Positions 1,768 through 58,349 of a stretch of 64,000 nucleotides of DNA are shown here, one piece after another. The DNA is from Solidesulfovibrio carbinolicus. Its GTDB lineage: Bacteria; Desulfobacterota; Desulfovibrionia; Desulfovibrionales; Desulfovibrionaceae. The translations under genes were made by a program, and so were the position numbers. Within the stretch, counting starts at the first letter, position 1; every line of letters begins with the position of its first letter. The stretch lies in assembly GCF_004135975.1 (NCBI RefSeq), contig NZ_CP026538.1, forward strand, positions 992,001 to 1,056,000, read 5' to 3'. The notes beneath the pieces were generated by a model. It did not search any database. It was not told the DNA's origin and worked only from the letters and a program-made list of their open reading frames with translations.

Positions 1768-1961
1768 TCGTTTTTTTTTCCACGCGCCGCCCGTTTTTTG
1801 TCCCAGGCCTGTCCTCGGGCTTCCTCGACTGCCATGTAGGGCGTCTTCCCGTTTCGCCGGAGCAATGGTGTTTTCCGTCAAGCTCTGCCCAAAGCCTCTT
1901 TGGCTCCCCAACCGGCTGCGCACGCATCCTCGCCGTCCCCCTTGAAACCTTTCCTCCATAT

Positions 1962-2000
1962 GGGGGGTCCGGGGGCCTCAGGCCCCCGGCCGCCGGAGGC
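1962..2000 (-). repeat. GC-rich palindromic repeat, copy 1
   Basis: Copy of the GCCTCCGGCGGCC family with stem GGGGGCCTGAGGCCCCC (read on the minus strand). The box end lies 22 bases beyond the stop of the minus-strand receiver-Hpt gene, behind a purine-rich tract. Confidence 0.85.
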
Positions 2001-4192: not shown

Positions 4193-4334
4193 GGCATCTC
4201 CTTCAGGCGGGACGCGCCCGCCCGCGAAGGTGTTTCAGATCGGGCCGGCGACGTCAACCGGCCGGCGGTCGGACGGGATATGGCGCGAGGAAACGCCTGC
4301 GCCCTCGGCTGGCCGACGCGTCGGAGGCAGGTTG

Positions 4335-7435: not shown

Positions 7436-7474
7436 GGGGGGTCTGGGGGCATCAGGCCCCCAGCCGCCGGAGGC
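7436..7474 (-). repeat. GC-rich palindromic repeat, copy 2
   Basis: Same family, with the paired change in the stem (CTGGGGG opposite CCCCCAG instead of CCGGGGG opposite CCCCCGG). The box end is 37 bases past the stop of lplA, behind a GA-rich tract. Confidence 0.85.
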
Positions 7475-10307: not shown

Positions 10308-10350
10308 GCCTCCGGCGGCCGGGAGGGGGTAACCCCCTCCCGGACCCTCC
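10308..10350 (+). repeat. GC-rich palindromic repeat, copy 3
   Basis: Box GCCTCCGGCGGCC followed by the second stem type, GGGAGGGGGT pairing with ACCCCCTCCC, then GGACCCTCC. A GA-rich tract precedes it. Unlike most copies, it is not behind a stop codon in its own orientation. Confidence 0.85.
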
Positions 10351-11279: not shown

Positions 11280-11604
11280 GGCGAAATCTCCTTGGAAAGC
11301 GGTCAACAGCGGCCCCAGCCGCCGACGTCACGGCGACACTCTTAACCGGGCAGGCGGGCGTCGTCTACTGATGCGAGGTGGAGGGGAGAGAGGAGAAGAG
11401 AAAGTGGAAGATGCTCCGGCGGCCGGGGGCCTGAGGCCCCCGGACCCCCCAATTGGTCTGCGGTGCGCGTTTATTCTTTCTTGGATTCTCCCTGGTTGGG
11501 GGGCGCTTTTCCCTTCAGGCCTTGCCTGAAGGGAAAAGCGCCCCCCAACCAGGGAGGGTCCGGGAGGGGGTTACCCCCTCCCGGCCGCCGGCACTGCCTT
11601 TCGC
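11280..11604. repeat. composite repeat element between folD and the FUSC gene
   Basis: The 325-bp gap holds a composite element at 11413-11591. It comprises a type-A repeat copy (11413-11450), a spacer beginning AATTGGTCTGCG, a perfect 31-bp inverted repeat (11490-11520 with 11524-11554, 3-base loop), and a type-B copy in opposite orientation (11552-11591). An inverted homologue is at 14559-14740. Nothing recognisable was seen in 11280-11412. Confidence 0.85.
11490..11554. repeat. 31-bp perfect inverted repeat (long hairpin)
   Basis: The arms 11490-11520 and 11524-11554 are exact inverted copies around CTT. The core GGGGCGCTTTT resembles the GAGCGCTTTTT core of the hairpin at 14606-14656. 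Confidence 0.9.
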
Positions 11605-12684
11605 TTATTCCATGGCCCGGATGCGGGCGACGGTTTCGCGGGCGTCGGCGGCGCAGGCGAGCATGCCGTGCATGAAGCTGAAGAAGTGCATGACTTCGCT
11701 TAAATCGTAGGCGGCCGGGGCGCGGTCGCGGCGCATGTCGGCGAGTTTATCCCGGGCCTTGGCCACGGCGGCGTCCAGGGCGTCCACGTCGGGCAGGGGC
11801 GCGTCGCCGCGCAGGTGGGCGGCGAGCTTCGTCAGCACCTCGGCTCCGGCGTGTTCCAGATCGGCCATTTCCTCGGGCAAATGGCGGTGCAGCCCCTTGC
11901 CGCGCCATTCGGCGGCCACGTGGTCCATGCCCAGCACGTGTTCGAAGAGCCGTTCGCCGCGAAAAAGCAGCATGGCCCGCAGGGCGCTTTCGCCCCGGTC
12001 GCGGCTTTCGGCGTCGGCTTCCAGGCGCAGTTCCCGGCAGCGGGCCAGGGTGCGCAGGATTCGGTCCTTTAAGGCGAACACATGGCGTTCGGGGTAGTCC
12101 TCGCGGATGCGGCCTTCCACCACCACGGCGAAAAGAGAGGCCACGTCCTCGAAGAGCTTGGCCAGGCCATGGGACAGCGCCCGGCTGGCCCGGGAGGGGA
12201 ACACGACCACCGAGGTCACCAGCGCCGTGACGATGCCCACGGCGATTTCCAGGAACCGGTCGAAGCCCAGTTCCAGGGCCGGCATGTCGGGATGGCCGGC
12301 CAAAATGACGATAACGGCGGTGATGCCGGCCACGCGCGAGCTTTCCCGCAGTTTGGGGATGGCGGCGCACACGGCCAGGGTGGCGAAGACGGCAAGGCCG
12401 GCGGCGGTCACGGTCTGGCCGCCGAAGTGGGAGGCCGCCGCGCCCAAGGCCGCGCCCACGGCCGTGCCGGCCAGCCGGGTCCAGGCGGCCCGGATGGAGC
12501 CGCCGAGATTGGCCTGCATGACGATGACGGCCGTGACCACGGCCCAGTAGCCCTGGGGCAGGGCGAGAAAGGCGACAAGCAGTTGGGTGGCCACCACGGC
12601 CACGGCCGTGCGCAGGGCGTGGCGCAAGCCGAAACGTCTGGCGAAACGGCCGAGGCGGCCGGCAATGTCGGAAAAGCTGATCAT
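11605..12684 (-). CDS. FUSC/aromatic acid exporter-like inner membrane protein
   Basis: 359 residues. The N-terminal 160 contain about six hydrophobic segments in pairs (ALRTAVAVVATQLLVAFLALPQGYW, VTAVIVMQANLG, LAGTAVGAALGAAASH, AAGLAVFATLAVCAAIP, AGITAVIVILAG, EIAVGIVTALVTSVVVFPSR), typical of the FUSC/ArAE fold. The remaining C-terminal 190 residues are a soluble, largely helical domain. Members export aromatic acids or other small molecules, but the substrate here is unknown. It lacks the second membrane half of AaeB/YccS proteins, so it probably works as an oligomer. Confidence 0.8.
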   Translation of the reverse strand: MISFSDIAGRLGRFARRFGLRHALRTAVAVVATQLLVAFLALPQGYWAVVTAVIVMQANLGGSIRAAWTRLAGTAVGAALGAAASHFGGQTVTAAGLAVFATLAVCAAIPKLRESSRVAGITAVIVILAGHPDMPALELGFDRFLEIAVGIVTALVTSVVVFPSRASRALSHGLAKLFEDVASLFAVVVEGRIREDYPERHVFALKDRILRTLARCRELRLEADAESRDRGESALRAMLLFRGERLFEHVLGMDHVAAEWRGKGLHRHLPEEMADLEHAGAEVLTKLAAHLRGDAPLPDVDALDAAVAKARDKLADMRRDRAPAAYDLSEVMHFFSFMHGMLACAADARETVARIRAME

Positions 12685-12927
12685 GGGGACGGGATGCTCC
12701 TTGACGCGAAGACGGGCTTCCTAACGCCGACGCGCCCGAATGGGAAGCCCCCAGGCGGGACCATTCCCAGGGGCAACGGTTGTGTCCGTAACCACCCTAT
12801 GGTATTTCTTCCCCAGTTGGCCAAGGGTTTGGTGGTTTTCGAACCCGAACGGAGCAAGCGCCGTGCCCGTAATCGCCCTGCCATGCGAGCCGCTGGTTCG
12901 CGGCTGTCCGCCCGGGCGGACGCGCCC

Positions 12928-14544
12928 ATGAGCGGCGCGAGGCTGCTCGTGGCCGGCGGGCCGGACCGGGACGCCGCCGCCCTGGCCGCCGCCCTCGGCC
13001 GGCCCGGCCGGGTCTGTCGCGCGGTCTTGCCCGCGTTCTTGCCCGACGTCCTTTCCGCCGCTGCGGCGGATGTGCTCATCATCCCGCTTTTTGGCCAGGA
13101 CGGCCCCGAACCGTTGCCGGAACTGCTGACGCTGCTTCACGGCGTGGCGGCTGCGGCCGTGTTTGTGGCCGACGCCGGGTTCGCGGCTCCGTCCGAGGGC
13201 CTACGCCTGCTGCCGGGACTGGCCGCCGCCGGCATCGATACGGTCCTCACCCTGCTGGCCGAACGTGACGAGGCTTCTTGTCGCTCCCAGGAAAATCTGG
13301 CCTGGAAACGCACGTTTCTAAGCGGTTTTTCCGGTCTGGTCGTGGTCTGCGACAGCCGGCGGCGGGTGGTGCGCGGCAACGCCCCCCTGACGCACCGGGC
13401 CGGGGCCGATCCGGCCGGCATGACCTGCCATGCCGCCCTGCACGGCCGGGGCGAACCCTGCCCCTGGTGCCCGGCCGACGAGGTCCTGGCCGGCCGAGTG
13501 GCGGCCATGGAGATCCAAAGCCCCTTGGACGGCCGATATTTCGCCATGACCTGCGCGCCCCTGGTCCTGTCCTGCCAGGAGACGCTCATGCTGACGCTTT
13601 TAACCGACGTCACCGAACGCAACATGGCCGTCGCCCGCCTCAAATCCCTCAACCGCGACCTGGAACGGCGGGTGAGCGAACGCACCGACGTGCTGGCCCG
13701 TCAGACCGAGGAACTGGCCGAAGCGAACAACCGCCTCGTCGAACTCGATGCCCTCAAATCCGGTTTCCTGGCCACGGTCACCCACGATCTGCGCACACCC
13801 CTGACCTCGGTGTTGGGCTTCGCCAAGCTCGTACGCCGGGATTTTCTCAAGGAATTCATGCCGTTTTCCGATGTGAGCGAGAAGCTTCGCCGCAAAGGGA
13901 CGCGGATTGCCGATAACCTGCGCATCATCGAAAACGAAGGCGAACGGCTCACCCGGCTGGTCAACGATTTTCTCGATCTTTCGCGCATCGAATCCGGCCG
14001 GCTGCCCTGGAACGACCGCGACGTGGACCCGGGCGAGGTGCTGCGGCTGGCCGCCGAGGCCGTGGGCGGCGAGTTCGAGCAAAACGAACGTCTGGCCCTG
14101 GTGGTGGACGTGGTCGGCCCCTTGCCGCCCCTGCGCCTGGACCCGGACCGGCTGGTGCAGGTGCTGGTCAACCTGCTCACCAACGCCGCGCGCCACACCC
14201 GGGAAGGGGTGGTGACGCTGGGCGCGCGCCAGCTGCCCTCGGGGCGGCTGGAACTGCGGGTGGACGACACCGGCCCGGGCATCGACGAAAAGGACCGGGA
14301 ACGCATTTTCGACAAATTCTATCAAGCCCGCCGGGGCGACACCCGGCCGGAAAAGGTCCGGGGCTCGGGCCTGGGGCTGGCCATCTGCAAACACATCGTG
14401 GAACGCTACGACGGCTCCATCCGGGCCGAAGGGCGCACTCCCCACGGCACAAGCTTCGTGGTGGAGCTGCCGCCGGCCGCCGCGTCGCCCGCAGCCCCGA
14501 CCTCGCCTGCAACCCGCCCCAACGCCGAGCCGTTGCCGTCATAG
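12928..14544 (+). CDS. PAS sensor histidine kinase, about 538 aa
   Basis: The N-terminal 110 residues look like a degenerate receiver or other alpha/beta fold (ARLLVAGGPDRD, VLIIPLFGQDGP). A PAS domain follows with a cysteine signature CHAALHGRGEPCPWCP at about residues 167-182. Next come a coiled coil (about 225-270), HisKA with His near residue 285 in THDLRTPLTSVLGF, and HATPase with DDTGPGIDEKD and GSGLGLAICKHIVERY. There is no membrane segment, so it is a cytoplasmic sensor. The start is uncertain: ATG 12928 and ATG 12883 both lack a good ribosome site, and I took the one next to the fold. Repeat copy 6 follows the stop. Confidence 0.88.
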   Translation: MSGARLLVAGGPDRDAAALAAALGRPGRVCRAVLPAFLPDVLSAAAADVLIIPLFGQDGPEPLPELLTLLHGVAAAAVFVADAGFAAPSEGLRLLPGLAAAGIDTVLTLLAERDEASCRSQENLAWKRTFLSGFSGLVVVCDSRRRVVRGNAPLTHRAGADPAGMTCHAALHGRGEPCPWCPADEVLAGRVAAMEIQSPLDGRYFAMTCAPLVLSCQETLMLTLLTDVTERNMAVARLKSLNRDLERRVSERTDVLARQTEELAEANNRLVELDALKSGFLATVTHDLRTPLTSVLGFAKLVRRDFLKEFMPFSDVSEKLRRKGTRIADNLRIIENEGERLTRLVNDFLDLSRIESGRLPWNDRDVDPGEVLRLAAEAVGGEFEQNERLALVVDVVGPLPPLRLDPDRLVQVLVNLLTNAARHTREGVVTLGARQLPSGRLELRVDDTGPGIDEKDRERIFDKFYQARRGDTRPEKVRGSGLGLAICKHIVERYDGSIRAEGRTPHGTSFVVELPPAAASPAAPTSPATRPNAEPLPS

Positions 14545-14558
14545 CAGGGGGGAAGAGT

Positions 14559-14740
14559 GCCTCCGGCGGCCGGGAGGGGGTAACCCCCTCCCGGACCCTC
14601 CCTACTTGGAGAGCGCTTTTTCGCCAAGCTCCGCTTGACGAAAAAGCGCTCTCCAAACAGGAAGGCCCCTGGGGAAAAGGAGCGGAGGTCGCAGACCAAT
14701 TGGGGGGGCCGGGGGCCTCAGGCCGCCGGCCGCCGGAGGC
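14559..14740. repeat. composite repeat element, inverted relative to 11413-11591
   Basis: Type-B copy 14559-14602, then a long hairpin 14606-14656 (24-bp arms around TCC, one mismatch), a spacer ending CGCAGACCAATT, and type-A copy 14702-14740 in opposite orientation. The order is the mirror image of the 11.4-kb element, and the spacer matches its complement. It sits between two convergent genes, with each terminal copy facing the stop codon beside it. Confidence 0.85.
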
Positions 14741-14750
14741 CTCTTTTGCC

Positions 14751-15473
14751 TCAAATATCGTTCAAATCGATGGTCTTGGGCGCGGGTTTGGCGGGCTTGG
14801 CCGGGTCTTTGGCGCCGGCCGGCGCGCTGGGCTGGCTGGGGGCGGACAGGTTGGAGCCGCTGTAGGACGGGCTGGACGCGGCGGCGGGAGCGGAGGACGC
14901 GGCCGGGGCGGCGCGTTTGGCGCCGCACACGAGCCGCACGCCTTCCAGGCGCGACCGGGCCTGGGCGTTGCCGGCCTCGCGGCGCAGCGCTTCCTGGTAG
15001 GCGGCCTGGGCCTTGTCGCACTGGCCCGTCAGCAGCGAGGCGTCGCCCAGGGCCACGGCGGCCCGGGGGTCCTTGCCGCCGGCCTTGGCGGCGGCTTCGA
15101 GCATGTCGCGGGCGCGGGCGGCGTCGCCGCCGGCCAAAAGCGTCATGCCAAGCCCTTCCATGGCCGGTGCGGAGGTGGGGCTGGCGGCCAGGGCGGCGCG
15201 GAAGGCCACCTCGGCCTTGTCCTGGCCGTCCTTGGCGCAGGCCGTGCCGCCCCGGGCCAGGGTTTCGGCTCCGGCCGAGGGCCCGGCCTGGGACAGTTCG
15301 CGGCAGGCGGCGGCGTAATCCTTTTTCTCGAACGCGGCGTTGCCGGCGGCGGCGTTGCCGGCGGCGGGGTCGGCGGCCGGTTCGGACGAGGAAAACTTCA
15401 TGGAGCCGCAGCCGGGCAGCACGGCGAGCAGGGCGGCCAGGGCCACGGGCGCGGCAAAGCGGCGTATCGACAT
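14751..15473 (-). CDS. TPR-containing lipoprotein, 240 aa
   Basis: The start is the ATG at 15473 behind GGAGG. The signal peptide is lipoprotein-type with lipobox LPGC (MSIRRFAAPVALAALLAVLPGC), so it should be membrane anchored outside the cytoplasm. TPR-like helical repeats cover about residues 45-180 (AFEKKDYAAACRELSQAG, KAEVAFRAALAASP, ARARDMLEAAAKAG, KAQAAYQEALRREAG). The C-terminal 60 residues are an Ala/Pro/Ser-rich linker ending KPAPKTIDLNDI. Its role is unknown, perhaps assembly of an envelope complex. It is divergent from the LysM gene. Confidence 0.85.
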   Translation of the reverse strand: MSIRRFAAPVALAALLAVLPGCGSMKFSSSEPAADPAAGNAAAGNAAFEKKDYAAACRELSQAGPSAGAETLARGGTACAKDGQDKAEVAFRAALAASPTSAPAMEGLGMTLLAGGDAARARDMLEAAAKAGGKDPRAAVALGDASLLTGQCDKAQAAYQEALRREAGNAQARSRLEGVRLVCGAKRAAPAASSAPAAASSPSYSGSNLSAPSQPSAPAGAKDPAKPAKPAPKTIDLNDI

Positions 15474-17209: not shown

Positions 17210-17226
17210 CCCCCGTCCAACAATTT

Positions 17227-17263
17227 GGGGGTCCGGGGGCCTCAGGCCCCCGGCCGCCAAGGC
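17227..17263 (-). repeat. GC-rich palindromic repeat, copy 8
   Basis: Type-A stem; the outer box is slightly decayed (GCCTTGGCGGCC on the minus strand). Its box end faces the stop of the Sel1-repeat gene 18 bases away. Confidence 0.8.
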
Positions 17264-20088: not shown

Positions 20089-22539
20089 ATGGAGCAGTCG
20101 CGCGCAAAGGCCCCCGAGGCCCCTGTGGCAGATGTCGTCGCCGAACGGGACCGCTTGCGCCTGACCCTGGCCGAAGCCGGGGGCATTATCGAGCGCTTGC
20201 GGGCCGAAGCCCAGGCCGGCAGCCAGGCCAAGGCCGATTTCATGGCCCGCATGACCCATGAAATGCGCACCCCTCTTTCGGCCATCATCGGCCTGTCCAA
20301 TTTGGCCAAGCCCTTGGCTGCCGACGCTAAACTGGCCGATTATCTGGTGAAGATCGCCCAGGCCGCCCGGGGACTTTTGGAGGTGGTGGACGACATCACC
20401 GATTTTTCGCGTTTGGAAAAAGGCCAGGCCGATCTTACTATCGCGCCCTTCAAGCCGGCCGAGGCCCTGGAACGGGTGGCCGGGCGCATCGCCGAGGCGG
20501 CCCGGGAAAAAGGCCTGACCCTGGCCGTGCGTCTGGACCCGGCCGTGCCGGCCGTCCTGGTCGGCGACAGCGCCCGCCTGGAAGCCGTGCTCGGGCATCT
20601 GGCCGGCAACGCCGTCAAATTCACCGAACGCGGCGGCCTGCGCCTGGAGGCCGATCTGGACGGCGGCGACGCGCAGAAGGCCCTCGTCGCCTTTGCCGTC
20701 ACCGACACCGGCATCGGCATGGACAAGGCCGCCGTCCCGGAAATGTTCGACTCCTTCACCCAGGCCGACGGCTCCTTGTCGCGGCCCTACGGCGGCACCG
20801 GCCTGGGGCTGGCCCTGGCCAGCCGGGGCGTGGCCCTGCTTGGCGGGGTGCTCGAAGTGGAGAGCCTGGCCGGGCAGGGAACCCGGTTTCGGTTTGTCGT
20901 GCCCTTCGCCCGGGCGGCCGAGGCCGGCCGCGAGCGAACGGCCCCGGCTGCGCCAAAACCAGCCCCACGCCCCCGGGAGGCCGCCTCGCCGGCCATGCGT
21001 CCCCTGTCCGGGACGTTGGTGCTTTTGGTCGAGGACAACGCCATCAACCAACAGGTGGCCCGGGAAACCCTGGAGACCCTGGGCGCGGCCGTGGACGTGG
21101 CCCTAAACGGCCGGGAAGCCGTGGAAATGGTCCGGTCGTCGCTCTACGACGTCGTGCTTATGGACGTGCAGATGCCGGTCATGGACGGCCTGGCCGCCAC
21201 CCGGGCCATCCGCCAGCTTCCCGGCACGGCCGAGCTGCCCATTGTGGCCTTGACCGCCCATGCCCTGGCCGAGGACCGCGAACGCTGCCTGGAAGCCGGC
21301 ATGAACGACTATCTGACCAAGCCCCTGGAGGTGGACCGGCTTCTGGCCTCCCTGGGCCAGTGGATCGCCCCGGCCGCCGCCGCCGTGCGTGGTCGCGCCG
21401 CCGTTACCGCCAGCCTTGTGGTGGCCGCCCCTGCCGACGGCACGGCTGGAACTCCCGTGGCCGAGGGCATGGACCTCGCCGCCGCCCGCCGCAGGCTTGG
21501 CGGCAACGAACGTCTGCTGGCCAGCGTGGCCGCCGAGTTCGTCCGGGACTACGCCGCCGCCGCCGCCGCCCTGGAAGGGCTTGTCGCCGACGGGGAGTTG
21601 GAGGCGGCCCGGCGGCTGGCTCATACCGTCAAGGGCGTGGCCGGCACCCTGGCCGCCTTGCCCCTGGCCGAAGCCGCCCGGGAGCTGGAAACCGTGCTGG
21701 CCGTGGGCGGCCGGCCCGGCCCGGGCGTCCTGCGCGCTTTCACCCGAAGCCTGGAGGCGGCCGTGGCCAGCGCCGCCACCCTGGCCCCGCCCAGGGAAGC
21801 CGAGCCGGCTTGTTCCCTTGGCCCCTGCTGGCGGGTGCTGCTGGTGGACGACGCCAAGCTTAACCGGGCGATTTTTTCCCAGATCCTGCGCAGCGGCGGC
21901 CATGAGGTGGTCACGGCCGAAAACGGCAAGGACGCCTGCCGCCGGCTGTTTGGCCAAAAGCCCGACGGACGGCCCTTCGACCTCATCCTCATGGACATCG
22001 AGATGCCCGAGATGGACGGCCCCACCGCCGCCCGCACCATCCGCCGGCTGCTGGCCGCCAGCGTCGCTCCGCCGTGCGCCCCGGGCGTGCCCATCGTGGC
22101 CTTGACCTCCCACGACTGCAAGGACGAGGCGGCGCGCTGTCTGGAGGCCGGCATGGACGCCTGCCTGCACAAGGTGTTCGAGCAGGGCGAGCTTTTGGCC
22201 ATTCTCCAAGGCCTCATGGACGGCCGGGAACCCGCCGGCCATGAGGTCCGGACGCCCCATCCGGCTGGAACAAACCCAGCCGGGCTGGCTCCGGCGCTGC
22301 GGCGTCTGGCCGGACATCTGGCCGAGGGCAACATCCGGGCCGACGAGGACATGGCCGTGGTGCGCGAGGCGTTTATTGGCCGGGTCGCGCCGCCGCAACT
22401 GGCCGAACTGGGCGAGGCCGTGGACCGCTACGATTTCACCGCCGCCGCCGTGATTCTCGACCGGCTGGCCGAGGCTTTGGGGCTGGAGATTCAGGGTGGC
22501 GGGAGACGGGTGATGCCTCCGGCGGCCGGGAGGGGGTAA
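20089..22539 (+). CDS. hybrid histidine kinase HisKA-HATPase-REC-Hpt-REC, 816 aa
   Basis: A short N-terminal coiled coil precedes HisKA with His57 (MTHEMRTPLSAIIGL). HATPase follows to about residue 285 (FAVTDTGIGMDKA, GGTGLGLALASRG). The first receiver is at 302-425 with Asp in VVLMDVQMPVMDG. The Hpt domain has His near residue 511 in RRLAHTVKGVAGTLAA. The second receiver is at about 580-715 (LILMDIEMPEMDG). There is no sensor or membrane domain, so its input must come from another protein. The ATG at 20089 follows GGAG. The last ten codons lie inside repeat copy 9. Confidence 0.93.
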   Translation: MEQSRAKAPEAPVADVVAERDRLRLTLAEAGGIIERLRAEAQAGSQAKADFMARMTHEMRTPLSAIIGLSNLAKPLAADAKLADYLVKIAQAARGLLEVVDDITDFSRLEKGQADLTIAPFKPAEALERVAGRIAEAAREKGLTLAVRLDPAVPAVLVGDSARLEAVLGHLAGNAVKFTERGGLRLEADLDGGDAQKALVAFAVTDTGIGMDKAAVPEMFDSFTQADGSLSRPYGGTGLGLALASRGVALLGGVLEVESLAGQGTRFRFVVPFARAAEAGRERTAPAAPKPAPRPREAASPAMRPLSGTLVLLVEDNAINQQVARETLETLGAAVDVALNGREAVEMVRSSLYDVVLMDVQMPVMDGLAATRAIRQLPGTAELPIVALTAHALAEDRERCLEAGMNDYLTKPLEVDRLLASLGQWIAPAAAAVRGRAAVTASLVVAAPADGTAGTPVAEGMDLAAARRRLGGNERLLASVAAEFVRDYAAAAAALEGLVADGELEAARRLAHTVKGVAGTLAALPLAEAARELETVLAVGGRPGPGVLRAFTRSLEAAVASAATLAPPREAEPACSLGPCWRVLLVDDAKLNRAIFSQILRSGGHEVVTAENGKDACRRLFGQKPDGRPFDLILMDIEMPEMDGPTAARTIRRLLAASVAPPCAPGVPIVALTSHDCKDEAARCLEAGMDACLHKVFEQGELLAILQGLMDGREPAGHEVRTPHPAGTNPAGLAPALRRLAGHLAEGNIRADEDMAVVREAFIGRVAPPQLAELGEAVDRYDFTAAAVILDRLAEALGLEIQGGGRRVMPPAAGRG

Positions 22540-22559
22540 CCCCCTCCCGGCCCCTCCCT
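22515..22559 (+). repeat. GC-rich palindromic repeat, copy 9
   Basis: Type-B stem. The repeat begins before the kinase stop codon at 22537-22539, so it supplies the last residues of the protein (PPAAGRG) and the stop itself. Confidence 0.85.
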
Positions 22560-25434: not shown

Positions 25435-25472
25435 CCTGTCGCCGTCCCGCCGCCGCCCCGCAACCCCATGTC

Positions 25473-25544
25473 GGGGGTCCGGGGGGCTGAGCCCCCCGGC
25501 GGAGAGGTCCAGGAGAGGCAGAGCCTCTCCTGGCCGCCGGAGGC
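25473..25544 (-). repeat. GC-rich palindromic repeat, copy 10, with an extra hairpin
   Basis: A type-A stem plus a second perfect palindrome at 25509-25533 (CCAGGAGAGGC pairing with GCCTCTCCTGG around AGA) inserted before the GCCTCCGGCGGCC box. It lies between the PPDK-like gene and hyi. Confidence 0.8.
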
Positions 25545-27353: not shown

Positions 27354-27373
27354 CGCGCCGCTCCATACAGGAT

Positions 27374-27425
27374 GGGGGGGCCGGGGGCCTTAGGCCCCCC
27401 GGCGGGGTTCGGGGCAGCGCCCCGA
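27374..27425 (-). repeat. GC-rich palindromic repeat, copy 11, double hairpin
   Basis: A type-A stem with a second hairpin, TCGGGGC with GCCCCGA (27409-27425), in place of the normal box. A GA-rich tract links it to the stop of the minus-strand oxidoreductase at 27440. Confidence 0.8.
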
Positions 27426-38515: not shown

Positions 38516-39687
38516 GGATCGCCGTCTACTGCCAGCATGTGCTGGGCATGGGGCATCTGTTTCGCACGCTGGAAATCGTCGCCGCCCTGGACGGCCACGA
38601 GCGACTGCTCGTCGTGGGCGGCCCGGACGTGCCGGCGGCCGTGCCCGGCGGCGTGCGTCTCCTGCGCTTGCCGCCCCTGGCCATGGACGCCGATTTTCGC
38701 GCCCTGACCCTGGAAGGCCCGGCCCTGGAGGCGGCCAAGGCGACTCGCCAGGCCCGGCTGCTGGACGCCCTGGCCGATTTCGCGCCCGACGTCTTTTTCG
38801 TCGAACTCTATCCCTTTGGCCGCAAGGCCTTCGAGTTCGAGCTGCTGCCGGCCATCCGCGCCGTGCGGGAGCGGGGCGGCAAGGTCGTGTGCGGCGTGCG
38901 CGACATCCTGGTCGAAAAAAAGGACCAGGCCGCTTACGAGACCCGGGTGCTGGACCGGCTCAATCGCCACTTCGACGCCGTGTGCGTCCATGGCGACCCG
39001 GCCCTTTTTCCCCTGTCCGCCACCTTCTCCCGAGCGGGCGACATCGCCTTGCCCGTGGCCCACGCCGGCTACGTGGCCCCGCCTCGGGCCACGCCGAAAG
39101 AGGCCGCCTCCGCCCGAGCCGCCCTGGGCGTGGCCGAGGGCAAGCCCCTCGTCGTCGTCTCGGCCGGCGGCGGCAAGGTCGGCTCGGAGCTGCCCGCCGC
39201 CGTGCTTGCCGCCTGCCGGGAGCACGGCCAGCTGGCCCAGGCGGCCCTTCGCGTGTTTTCCGGCCCCTTTTGCGACGAGGACGCCTTCGCCGCCCTGGTC
39301 CGGGCCGCGGCCGACCTGCCCGACGCCCGGGTCGTCCGCTTCACCCCGGATTTCCCGGCCGTGCTGGCCGGGTGCGACCTGTCCGTGAGCCTGGCCGGCT
39401 ACAACACCGTCATGGGATTGCTCGCCGCCCACTGCCGAGCCCTGGTCATGCCCTTTGACCAGAACCGCGAACAGCGCCTGCGCGCCGAGCGCCTGGCCGG
39501 CTTGGGGCTGCTCGGCCTCATCGAACCGTCGCAGCTCTCTGCCTCCCTCCTGGCCCCCCGCCTGGCCGCCGCGCTGACCGCCTCGTCGCCCCCCCCCGGA
39601 CGCATCGACCTCGACGGTGCGGCCAAGGCGGCGAAATTTTTGGTGAAGATAGAAGGGGGAGGATGCCTCCGGCGGCCGGGGGCCTGA
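38512..39687 (+). CDS. MurG-like glycosyltransferase, 391 aa
   Basis: The GTG start overlaps the upstream TGA. The N-terminus MRIAVYCQHVLGMGHLFRTLE matches a family of GT28-like transferases that begin with a GxGHxxR motif. The C-terminal half has VVSAGGGKVGSELP and DLSVSLAGYNTVMGLLAAHCRALVMPFDQNREQRLRAERL, the donor-binding signature. The last residues (GGCLRRPGA) are encoded by repeat copy 12, which carries the stop codon; the ancestral C-terminus was probably shorter or different. The substrate is unknown. Confidence 0.85.
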   Translation: MRIAVYCQHVLGMGHLFRTLEIVAALDGHERLLVVGGPDVPAAVPGGVRLLRLPPLAMDADFRALTLEGPALEAAKATRQARLLDALADFAPDVFFVELYPFGRKAFEFELLPAIRAVRERGGKVVCGVRDILVEKKDQAAYETRVLDRLNRHFDAVCVHGDPALFPLSATFSRAGDIALPVAHAGYVAPPRATPKEAASARAALGVAEGKPLVVVSAGGGKVGSELPAAVLAACREHGQLAQAALRVFSGPFCDEDAFAALVRAAADLPDARVVRFTPDFPAVLAGCDLSVSLAGYNTVMGLLAAHCRALVMPFDQNREQRLRAERLAGLGLLGLIEPSQLSASLLAPRLAAALTASSPPPGRIDLDGAAKAAKFLVKIEGGGCLRRPGA

Positions 39688-39703
39688 GGCCCCCGGACCC
39701 CCC
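39665..39703 (+). repeat. GC-rich palindromic repeat, copy 12
   Basis: A type-A stem; the glycosyltransferase stop codon at 39685-39687 lies inside it. GGAGAAAGGGG follows, as in other copies. Confidence 0.85.
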
Positions 39704-50735: not shown

Positions 50736-50773
50736 GCCTCCGGCGGCTGGGGGCCTGAGGCCCCCAGACCACC
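50736..50773 (+). repeat. GC-rich palindromic repeat, copy 13
   Basis: The A' stem (GGCTGGGGGCC with GGCCCCCAGACC). It follows the PBP1A stop by 21 bases, behind a pure purine tract GGGGAGAGAAGAAGAGAAAG. Confidence 0.85.
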
Positions 50774-51103
50774 CGATTGAAGAAAAGGGTAAAGGGGAGG
50801 GCCGCGGGGGCCGGGCCTTGGCTGGGAGGCGTGTGAAAGAGCCGGTCAACCTGGAAATTCGGGCGGTTAGCGTTGGTTGGCTTGGGCAAGTAACGTGCTT
50901 AAATTATTGTTCATTAATGCTTGAAAAAATGAAGCTGCCTTGACGCGGCACGGGCTTTGGACTAGCTGTGAGGTTTGGGCGTTCGCCGTGCCTCCCTTGC
51001 CGGAGGCCGCCAGGCCGCCAGCCATCGTCCGGACGCCGCGCGTCCGGTAAACCGCGCCCGCGCCGTCGGGTCCCAAGCCGGCCGCCGACGCCGGCAAGCC
51101 AGT
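50774..51103. other. intergenic region before the two unknown genes
   Basis: Past repeat copy 13 there is an AT-richer stretch at 50880-50940. A candidate promoter TTGACG (50940-50945), 17 bases, TAGCTG follows, then a GC-rich leader of about 130 bases. I see no gene in it. Confidence 0.45.
50940..50968 (+). promoter_or_regulatory. candidate promoter of the membrane/coiled-coil gene pair
   Basis: TTGACG, 17 bases, then TAGCTG. Only the -35 is close to consensus. It follows an AT-rich stretch. Confidence 0.35.
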
Positions 51104-56933: not shown

Positions 56934-56972
56934 GCCTCCGGCGGCTGGGGGCCTGAGGCCCCCAGACCCCCC
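56934..56972 (+). repeat. GC-rich palindromic repeat, copy 14
   Basis: The A' stem as in copy 13; it starts 43 bases past the stop of the 1048-aa gene and is followed by GAAGAAAAGGGTTAAGGGG, as in copy 13. Confidence 0.85.
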
Positions 56973-58310: not shown

Positions 58311-58349
58311 GGGGGGTCCGGGGGCCTCAGGCCCCCGGCCGCCGGAGGC
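58311..58349 (-). repeat. GC-rich palindromic repeat, copy 15
   Basis: A type-A stem; its box end faces the stop codon at 58388 across a GA-rich tract. Confidence 0.85.

Follow-up and report, generated by a model that had tools for sequence, protein, structure and literature searches.

The 64,000-nucleotide stretch of the Solidesulfovibrio carbinolicus genome analysed here (the window; contig NZ_CP026538.1, positions 992,001 to 1,056,000) contains two composite repeats of about 180 bp that almost certainly belong to a family of repetitive extragenic palindromic (REP) elements carrying a tag of their own, here called the head, and having no REP-associated tyrosine transposase (RAYT). We hold with equal assurance that this head is the target of one group of insertion sequences (ISs) of the IS110 family, and some copies of the repeat end in a sequence nearly identical to the right end of these ISs. 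The explanation that we favour over its rivals, as probable though by no means secure, is that the family is mobile DNA akin to REPs and to REP doublets forming hairpins (REPINs), and is tied to the IS110 recombinase and its bridge RNA. Genomes are referred to by number, G000 being that of the window; coordinates below 64,000 are those of the window and larger ones those of the G000 genome.

Composite elements and the repeat family

The initial annotation placed two mirror-image composites at 11413-11591 and 14559-14740, and both are found there with the layout it described. Composite 1 (11413-11591, + strand) consists of a forward type-A REP-like element, a spacer with a long palindrome, and an inverted type-B element. 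Its type-A element (11413-11449, +) has a worn head, GATGCTCCGGCGG, the hairpin CCGGGGGCC-TGA-GGCCCCCGG, and the tail ACCCCCC; the spacer starts AATTGGTCTGCG, and the type-B element (11557-11591, -) is also worn at its head, the two outer heads reading GATGCTCCGG and TGCCGGCGG. The arms of the central palindrome (11488-11556, with a 3-nt loop) are perfect as annotated, with 0 mismatches, but are 33 bp long rather than 31. Composite 2 (14559-14740, - strand) has the reverse order, with a type-B element (14559-14600, +), a central palindrome (14606-14656) whose 24-bp arms have the one mismatch noted earlier, and an inverted type-A element (14702-14740, -), both heads being intact. It sits between convergent genes at 12928-14544 (+) and 14751-15473 (-), according to our home-made gene calls. 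For comparison with the composite palindromes, the longest near-perfect arms in two shuffles of the window were 12 and 15 bp. Each composite is a heterodimer of A and B hairpin elements, heads outward, flanking a long palindrome.

A genome search with composite 1 gave 13 composite-length matches, the query and composite 2 included, with the other 12 at 70–89% identity; the number is a lower bound, as 40 of 339 candidates were scored. Further composite-length copies (12) therefore exist in this genome and, as shown below, so do empty sites in relatives, so that neither outcome named by the initial annotation as refuting it was seen. Ten aligned composites (including composite 2 and not composite 1, whose worn head was missed by the finder) have their ends in common, and most contain CTGTTTGG...GCG.TTTTT on one side of the central palindrome, the inner sequence of which differs from copy to copy with the arms staying matched. 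Their ends are inverted, and no target duplication was recognised by eye, without statistics.

The composites are built from a more abundant element. Within 400 kb of G000, nearly all of 38 elements comprise a purine-rich tract, a near-constant GATGCCTCCGGCGG-like head, a hairpin, and a C-rich (ACCCCC-like) tail, with the head laid out as purine tract-GATGC-CT-CCGGCGG. The stems are 8–12 bp long and the loop is mostly of 3 nt; hairpin types include GGGGGCC-TGA-GGCCCCC, GGGAGGGGG-TAA-CCCCCTCCC, GGGGGGC-TAA-GCCCCCC, GGGGGGA-TGA-TCCCCCC, CAAAGGG...CCCTTTG, and others, such that the palindrome sequence varies while pairing persists. Loop variants also occur inverted among copies (TAA/TTA, TGA/TCA). 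Outside the window, at 1124374-1124586, a long palindrome has kept its arms while its central loop reads in opposite directions in G000 and G005 (GGA/TCC), which points to hairpin inversion or template switching.

The type-A core has 225 strand matches genome-wide at up to 3 mismatches (reversed-pattern control, 0). Because a single element is sometimes matched on each strand (in the 400 kb, 27 matches correspond to 25 sites), this amounts to about 210 type-A sites, and match counts across genomes are somewhat high. The type-B core has 36 matches (control, 0), with 7 matches at 7 sites in the 400 kb. The elements occur as singles, as heads-outward inverted pairs, and as direct units of about 137 bp, in some hundreds of copies.

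IS110 elements inserted at the head

At position 954210 of G000 the orthologous G005 element is split by an IS of about 1.2 kb with a 342-aa frame. Searches with the Pfam Transposase_20 domain show the 342-aa form ten times in G005 and once in G000, with relatives of about 350 aa in G000 (two), G007 (two), G008 and G009. Half of 30 fetched IS110 loci belong to this 342/350/351-aa group, and in all 15 the insertion point is the same, the CT core of a head; the other 15, which are of other groups or are fragments, have no head junction. The right junction in every one of the 15 copies is ...CACCGTTG joined to CTCCGGCGG, with one extra base in locus L303, and two further G005 copies, read by a junction search described below, have the exact junction too. 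The hairpins beside the 15 copies are of four types, so the head is targeted whatever the hairpin. Left junctions, where present, read (A/G)ATGC, GAGTGC or GAGGC followed by CT-TGTATG, and the core is therefore CT, as it is for IS621 (PMC11208160). G011 has 13 matches to another IS110 group; ten were fetched and none lies in these heads.

The left non-coding ends of these ISs contain candidate guide sequences. In all 14 readable copies (the 15th, L284, is without a left end) there are a predicted target loop and a predicted donor loop, whose guide-like sequences match the head and the IS ends imperfectly. The left guide of the target loop is AUUGCCU in 11 copies, GAUGCCU in two (the G000 350-aa copies) and AGUGCCU in one, with UGCCU common to all; GCCGGAG follows the stem in 14 of 14. 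The donor loop has ACCGUUGC plus CACAAG (11 copies) or UACAAG (3), and in the one copy that was folded an internal loop places the two target guides opposite one another. From sequence matching, the putative bridge-RNA target guides thus appear to match the repeat head, the left guide being mismatched in most copies.

Repeat units ending in an IS110 right end

Some elements run on to a right end, TTGACGGGAACCACCGTTG-CTCCGG, that is nearly identical to that of the IS (TTGACTGGAACCACCGTTG in G007). Eighteen non-redundant units of this kind align along their whole length; the distance from head to right end is mostly 115–120 nt, and in several species the interiors are alike. They share with the IS its right end and the core, but start with a head whereas the IS starts with CTTGTATG, so that the left end is not shared. 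A first right-end pattern was noisy (14 matches, against 2–6 with shuffled and 7 with reversed patterns) and was replaced by a stricter motif: in stretches from three species this has 13 matches, of which 10 have a head 95–135 nt upstream and 9 are followed by a head. Control motifs, one reversed and five shuffled, gave 10 matches, none with a head upstream and none with a head after it. A profile of the unit tail, from which three divergent units were excluded, was run at E ≤ 0.1 on 280 kb of G001 (13 matches), 72 kb of G008 (6) and 400 kb of G000 (4); every match has a head (up to 2 mismatches) upstream, and reversed-sequence controls gave none.

Junctions of a right end with a head (up to 1 mismatch) number 32 in G001, 38 in G009, 16 in G008, 10 in G005, 5 in G007 and 6 in G000, against 0–2 per strand in backward controls. 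The corresponding Transposase_20 matches are 1 (partial), 1, 2, 12, 2 and 3. Because the junctions outnumber the genes, most of those in G001, G008 and G009 are not IS copies with that domain. G208, of another genus, has nine exact junctions of this kind, and the association of IS110 with the head may therefore reach beyond Solidesulfovibrio.

Within the window, the single type-A element at 1962-2000 (-) is the left part of one of these units, with the IS110-like right end at 1862-1883 (-) followed by TCCGGCG, a second head remnant. At 4319-4328 (-) there is a single head-like sequence in G000; a whole unit occupies the same site in G005 and G007, neither unit nor head-like sequence is present there in G006, and no unit was seen at this site in ten other relatives.

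Search for a cognate RAYT

The initial annotation likened the composites to REPINs and to miniature inverted-repeat transposable elements (MITEs), with movement by a RAYT encoded elsewhere. The architecture is as it supposed, in that outward-facing tagged hairpins surround a spacer and are dispersed, extragenic, and present or absent between species. Its mover fares otherwise: no RAYT was found in the genome, and the evidence points to an IS110-family recombinase. Pfam Y1_Tnp was searched in the G000 genome itself, 14 genus members, and 199 genomes of the family. The Y1 genes of G000 are three IS200-type copies (at C1:568250, C1:1697488 and C2:3920), one with an intact 142-aa transposase, one with a stop and one truncated; the intact protein scores 141.8 bits as IS200 against 35.3 as RAYT, for which the cut-off is 80. 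There is no Y1 match in the element-rich genomes G003, G006 and G007 (the last 89% complete), nor in G010, G011 and G012. Y1 matches occur in 74 of the 199 family genomes, and none of the 44 loci fetched, which are part of the family's Y1 loci, has an element; two head-like matches there have no hairpin after them. The tag is also neither GTAG nor CGTC, recognised copies carrying a GCCTCCGGCGG-like head. A RAYT as mover was rejected on these searches, no cognate RAYT flanked by the repeat having been found in the G000 genome or at the 44 fetched loci.

Genomic context and distribution among relatives

In the 400 kb of G000, 37 of the 38 elements fall outside called genes, as befits a high-copy extragenic palindrome of 20–40 bp. 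The context counts leave out the one in-gene element and include a doubtful match at 1142097; gene ends are approximate, since the calls come from a home-made codon-usage caller. With these limits, the head adjoins the 3' end of a gene in 27 of 37 cases, and 18 of 37 elements lie between convergent 3' ends, compared with 37 of 196 gaps of at least 60 bp. In stretches of three species the heads point outward in 15 of 18 neighbour pairs less than 500 bp apart (p = 3e-7 against an expectation of 1/4); we use this figure over a wider count of 38 of 49 because the latter includes orthologous copies and pattern-selected loci. This context and outward pairing is a REPIN-like organisation.

A phage origin was considered and rejected, as 50,697 phage records gave no match at E up to 1; plasmid matches are weak short pieces (E ≥ 0.6) and were not used. 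Rfam gave 0 matches over the window at gathering scores. An intrinsic terminator is not favoured either, because the hairpins inspected are not followed by a U-run and a separate terminator-like hairpin is present at 859552.

Type-A matches number 225 in G000, 241 in G005, 104 in G006 and 201 in G007, with 28–35 in G001, G008 and G009 and 0–2 in seven others. A pattern of head plus tail with a free hairpin, which can count one place twice where two tails fit, has 15–234 matches in the 11 genus members drawn (G004 15, G011 19, G006 37, G007 197, G003 234); across the order it is present in 27 of 55 genera (98 of 297 genomes), with a backward control of 0 or 1 per strand. Among the GTDB matches listed, it is seen in Desulfoluna, a Desulfobacteraceae bin, Bilophila, Polymorphobacter, Sandarakinorhabdus and Acidobacteriota bins, and in 77 of 88 the outer stem pairs without a break over 6 or more positions, one of which the pattern itself imposes, the stem sequences being highly varied; lone matches outside the family may be due to chance.

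Occupied sites were compared with their counterparts in relatives, and empty sites exist. G000 and G005 are mostly 92–96% identical, and of the 165 gene junctions that could be compared, both genomes have an element at 23, G000 alone at none, and G005 alone, as scored, at 4; among these four, 996192 is a true presence/absence difference, two are decayed copies in G000, and 1130763 looked like a false match. At shared sites the elements are conserved and stems change on both sides. Against G001, 27 junctions include 5 occupied in G000 only, 2 in G001 only and none in both, and against G008, 22 junctions include 3 in G000 only, 2 in G008 only, and 2 shared ones whose hairpins are unrelated. Where G000 has composite 2, G001 has an empty 65-bp gap and G008 has unrelated sequence; at 1023604 it is G000 that has a gap, of 9 bp, and G001 and G008 that have an element. 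Downstream of folD there are elements in G000, G005, G007 and G001 and none in seven relatives (G003, G004, G008, G009, G011, G012, G013); less than about 20 bp separates folD from the next gene in all of these but G003, where the gap is uncertain. Palindromes without a GATGCCTCCGGCGG-type head lie 5' of folD in G004 and G011. From these site comparisons, elements have been gained (or lost) between clades, with little change since G000 and G005 split.

In the comparison of 33 element clusters with their G005 orthologs, 24 have both flanks in the G005 stretches, 8 are missing a flank, and one is split. The type-A element at 11413 is a rearrangement breakpoint: the two flanks of composite 1, one of them the folD side, are joined in G000, whereas in G005 they are separated, each has a composite of its own, and the partner is more than 2 Mb away.

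Mode of spread

According to the explanation we favour, the units of about 137 bp would be non-autonomous passengers that the IS110 recombinase moves, or once moved, in circular form, and each would bring along its own landing site. Movement of units together with recombination between heads would have spread the family, and the inverted composites would be paired elements that dispersed at that time and have since become mostly inert. Because some copies carry an IS110 end, they may be IS110 hitch-hikers. The parts of this proposal differ in strength. The chance that IS110 moved the units is close to even, if a little short of it, and we think it unlikely that it moved the composites. A tentative extension, which we would put forward as a possibility, is that these repeats represent a REP/REPIN-like class spreading by bridge-RNA-guided IS110 recombination instead of by a RAYT, with the tag as the RNA-specified landing site. 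On that tentative reading a unit joins a right-end donor half to a fresh landing site, such that units could nest in one another, excise cleanly, and act as programmable-recombination hot spots for rearrangement genome-wide.

Several observations weigh against an IS110-based explanation. The most serious is that a unit has a head (CCGGCGG) as its right donor half in place of the IS left end (TGTATG), and the donor guide therefore fits only the left half of a unit circle; moreover, the commonest target guide, AUUGCCU, fits the left side of the head in its last five letters only. The unit tail is seen in only 4 of 37 elements in the 400 kb of G000 (compared with 13 of 37 in G001 and 6 of 10 in G008), and neither composite of the window shows it or any recognisable IS110 end. 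IS copies lacking the Transposase_20 part would escape our count of ISs, and the G000 state at 4319 could be a deletion between direct repeats, not an excision. Some occupied sites, e.g. the one corresponding to 1023604, show no head in their state prior to insertion. Lastly, all 23 of the 23 comparable sites occupied in G000 are occupied in G005 also, so that recent movement is hardly visible.

Three other explanations were weighed. That these are true REPINs, whose RAYT is encoded elsewhere or has since been lost, would account for the inverted doublets of tagged hairpins with their tags outside, their extragenic location, the hundreds of copies per genome, and the lineage-specific stems. 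However, G000 has intact, stop-bearing and truncated IS200 copies and no RAYT; no Y1 protein is matched in G003 (234 generic-pattern matches), G007 (197) or G006 (37, with 104 type-A matches); the repeat is absent from all 44 fetched Y1 loci; and the tag is not GTAG. This explanation is very improbable and mostly refuted, although an ancestral RAYT lost from all sampled lineages is conceivable. A role for the hairpins in the host is better placed, though still distinctly unlikely: they would be selected as RNA structures of the 3' untranslated region, acting in termination or mRNA stability, and IS110 would use them as a safe landing site. The adjacency of heads to gene 3' ends (27 of 37), the excess between convergent genes (18 of 37 against 37 of 196 gaps) and the conservation at shared sites with stems changing on both sides agree with this, as does the known targeting of REPs by IS110 elements (PMC1525189, PMC11208160). 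Yet the hairpins inspected lack a U-run, the terminator-like hairpin with a T-run at 859552 is separate and is kept in G001, which has no element at that site, sites are empty in many relatives, and the IS110 right end on the units is left unexplained.

The remaining alternative, which we regard as quite improbable, dispenses with a dedicated mover: the repeats would be passive palindromes that spread and stay perfect through template switching during replication, gene conversion and recombination between copies, and their IS110-like ends would be the scars of degraded IS110 insertions. Such processes are suggested by the inversion of a loop between orthologs (TCC/GGA at 1124374) and the loop variants TAA/TTA and TGA/TCA, by near-perfect arms despite variable sequence, and by the rearrangement that joins two elements at 11413 in G000 relative to G005. 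Scars would not be expected to have a spacing of mostly 115–120 nt with a similar interior across species, however, and the element at 1023604 in G001 and G008, against the 9-bp gap in G000, is not explained.

Other elements in the window

Single type-A elements are also present at 7436-7474 (-), 17226-17260 (-, with a decayed head), 39665-39703 (+), 50736-50774 (+), 56934-56972 (+) and 58311-58349 (-); in the one at 39665 an outer stem pair is changed on both sides in G005. Single type-B elements lie at 10308-10350 (+), between folD and the next gene, and at 22515-22557 (+). A GC-rich double-hairpin variant with the same head is located at 25466-25544 (-), and a second such variant, with GGGGCGCTGCCCC-ACCCCGCCGG, at 27360-27410.

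Comparison with known systems

REPINs were reportedly described by Bertels and Rainey. REP and REPIN families are usually credited to RAYTs, although some large ones (the CGTC type and, as far as searched, the present one) have none. Here there is a concrete candidate for an alternative enzyme, its putative guide RNA apparently specifies the repeat, and a subset of the repeats carry the enzyme's end; this makes the mover of RAYT-less REPs a directly testable matter. It also suggests a way in which IS110 elements may coevolve with their landing sites, and provides some hundreds of candidate natural bridge-RNA target sites in one genome.

IS110 targeting of REPs (PMC1525189, PMC11208160), REPs without a dedicated transposase (PMC3733652), and REPINs (PMC3116915) are already known. 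Our literature search, which left subscription papers and preprints largely uncovered, found no paper describing repeats of this kind in Desulfovibrio, or miniature repeats with IS110 ends. The elements resemble REPINs (PMC3116915) in being inverted palindromic doublets with a folding spacer, extragenic and present in hundreds per genome, with singlets as likely remnants; they differ in that no RAYT was found, in the longer and different tag GATGCCTCCGGCGG, in forming A/B heterodimers, and in having a third, long central palindrome. With the GTAG- and CGTC-tagged REPs (Di Nocera 2013, PMC3733652) they share a constant end motif, complementary stem changes, outward dimers and a location mostly downstream of genes, and the CGTC-type REPs are likewise without a dedicated transposase; the tag is neither of these, however, the stems are mostly 8–12 bp, and the tail is GGACCCCC. 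The text of PMC3733652 does not contain 'Desulfo', but does name D. alkenivorans with GTAG-14 repeats.

Like MITEs, the elements are short, non-coding and of high copy number, and have an end shared with an autonomous element, but the units share only one end with the IS and no target duplication was seen by eye; most IS110 members are themselves without terminal inverted repeats (PMC1525189). The closest parallels for the insertions are IS621, ISPa11, ISPpu9 and ISPpu10, every copy of which lies in the same position of a REP (PMC1525189, PMC11208160), and IS621 in addition has a CT core and an RNA with target and donor loops (PMC11208160). Unlike in the IS110-targeted REPs known from these sources, the target here is a tag beside any hairpin, and some of the repeats themselves end in an IS110 right end.

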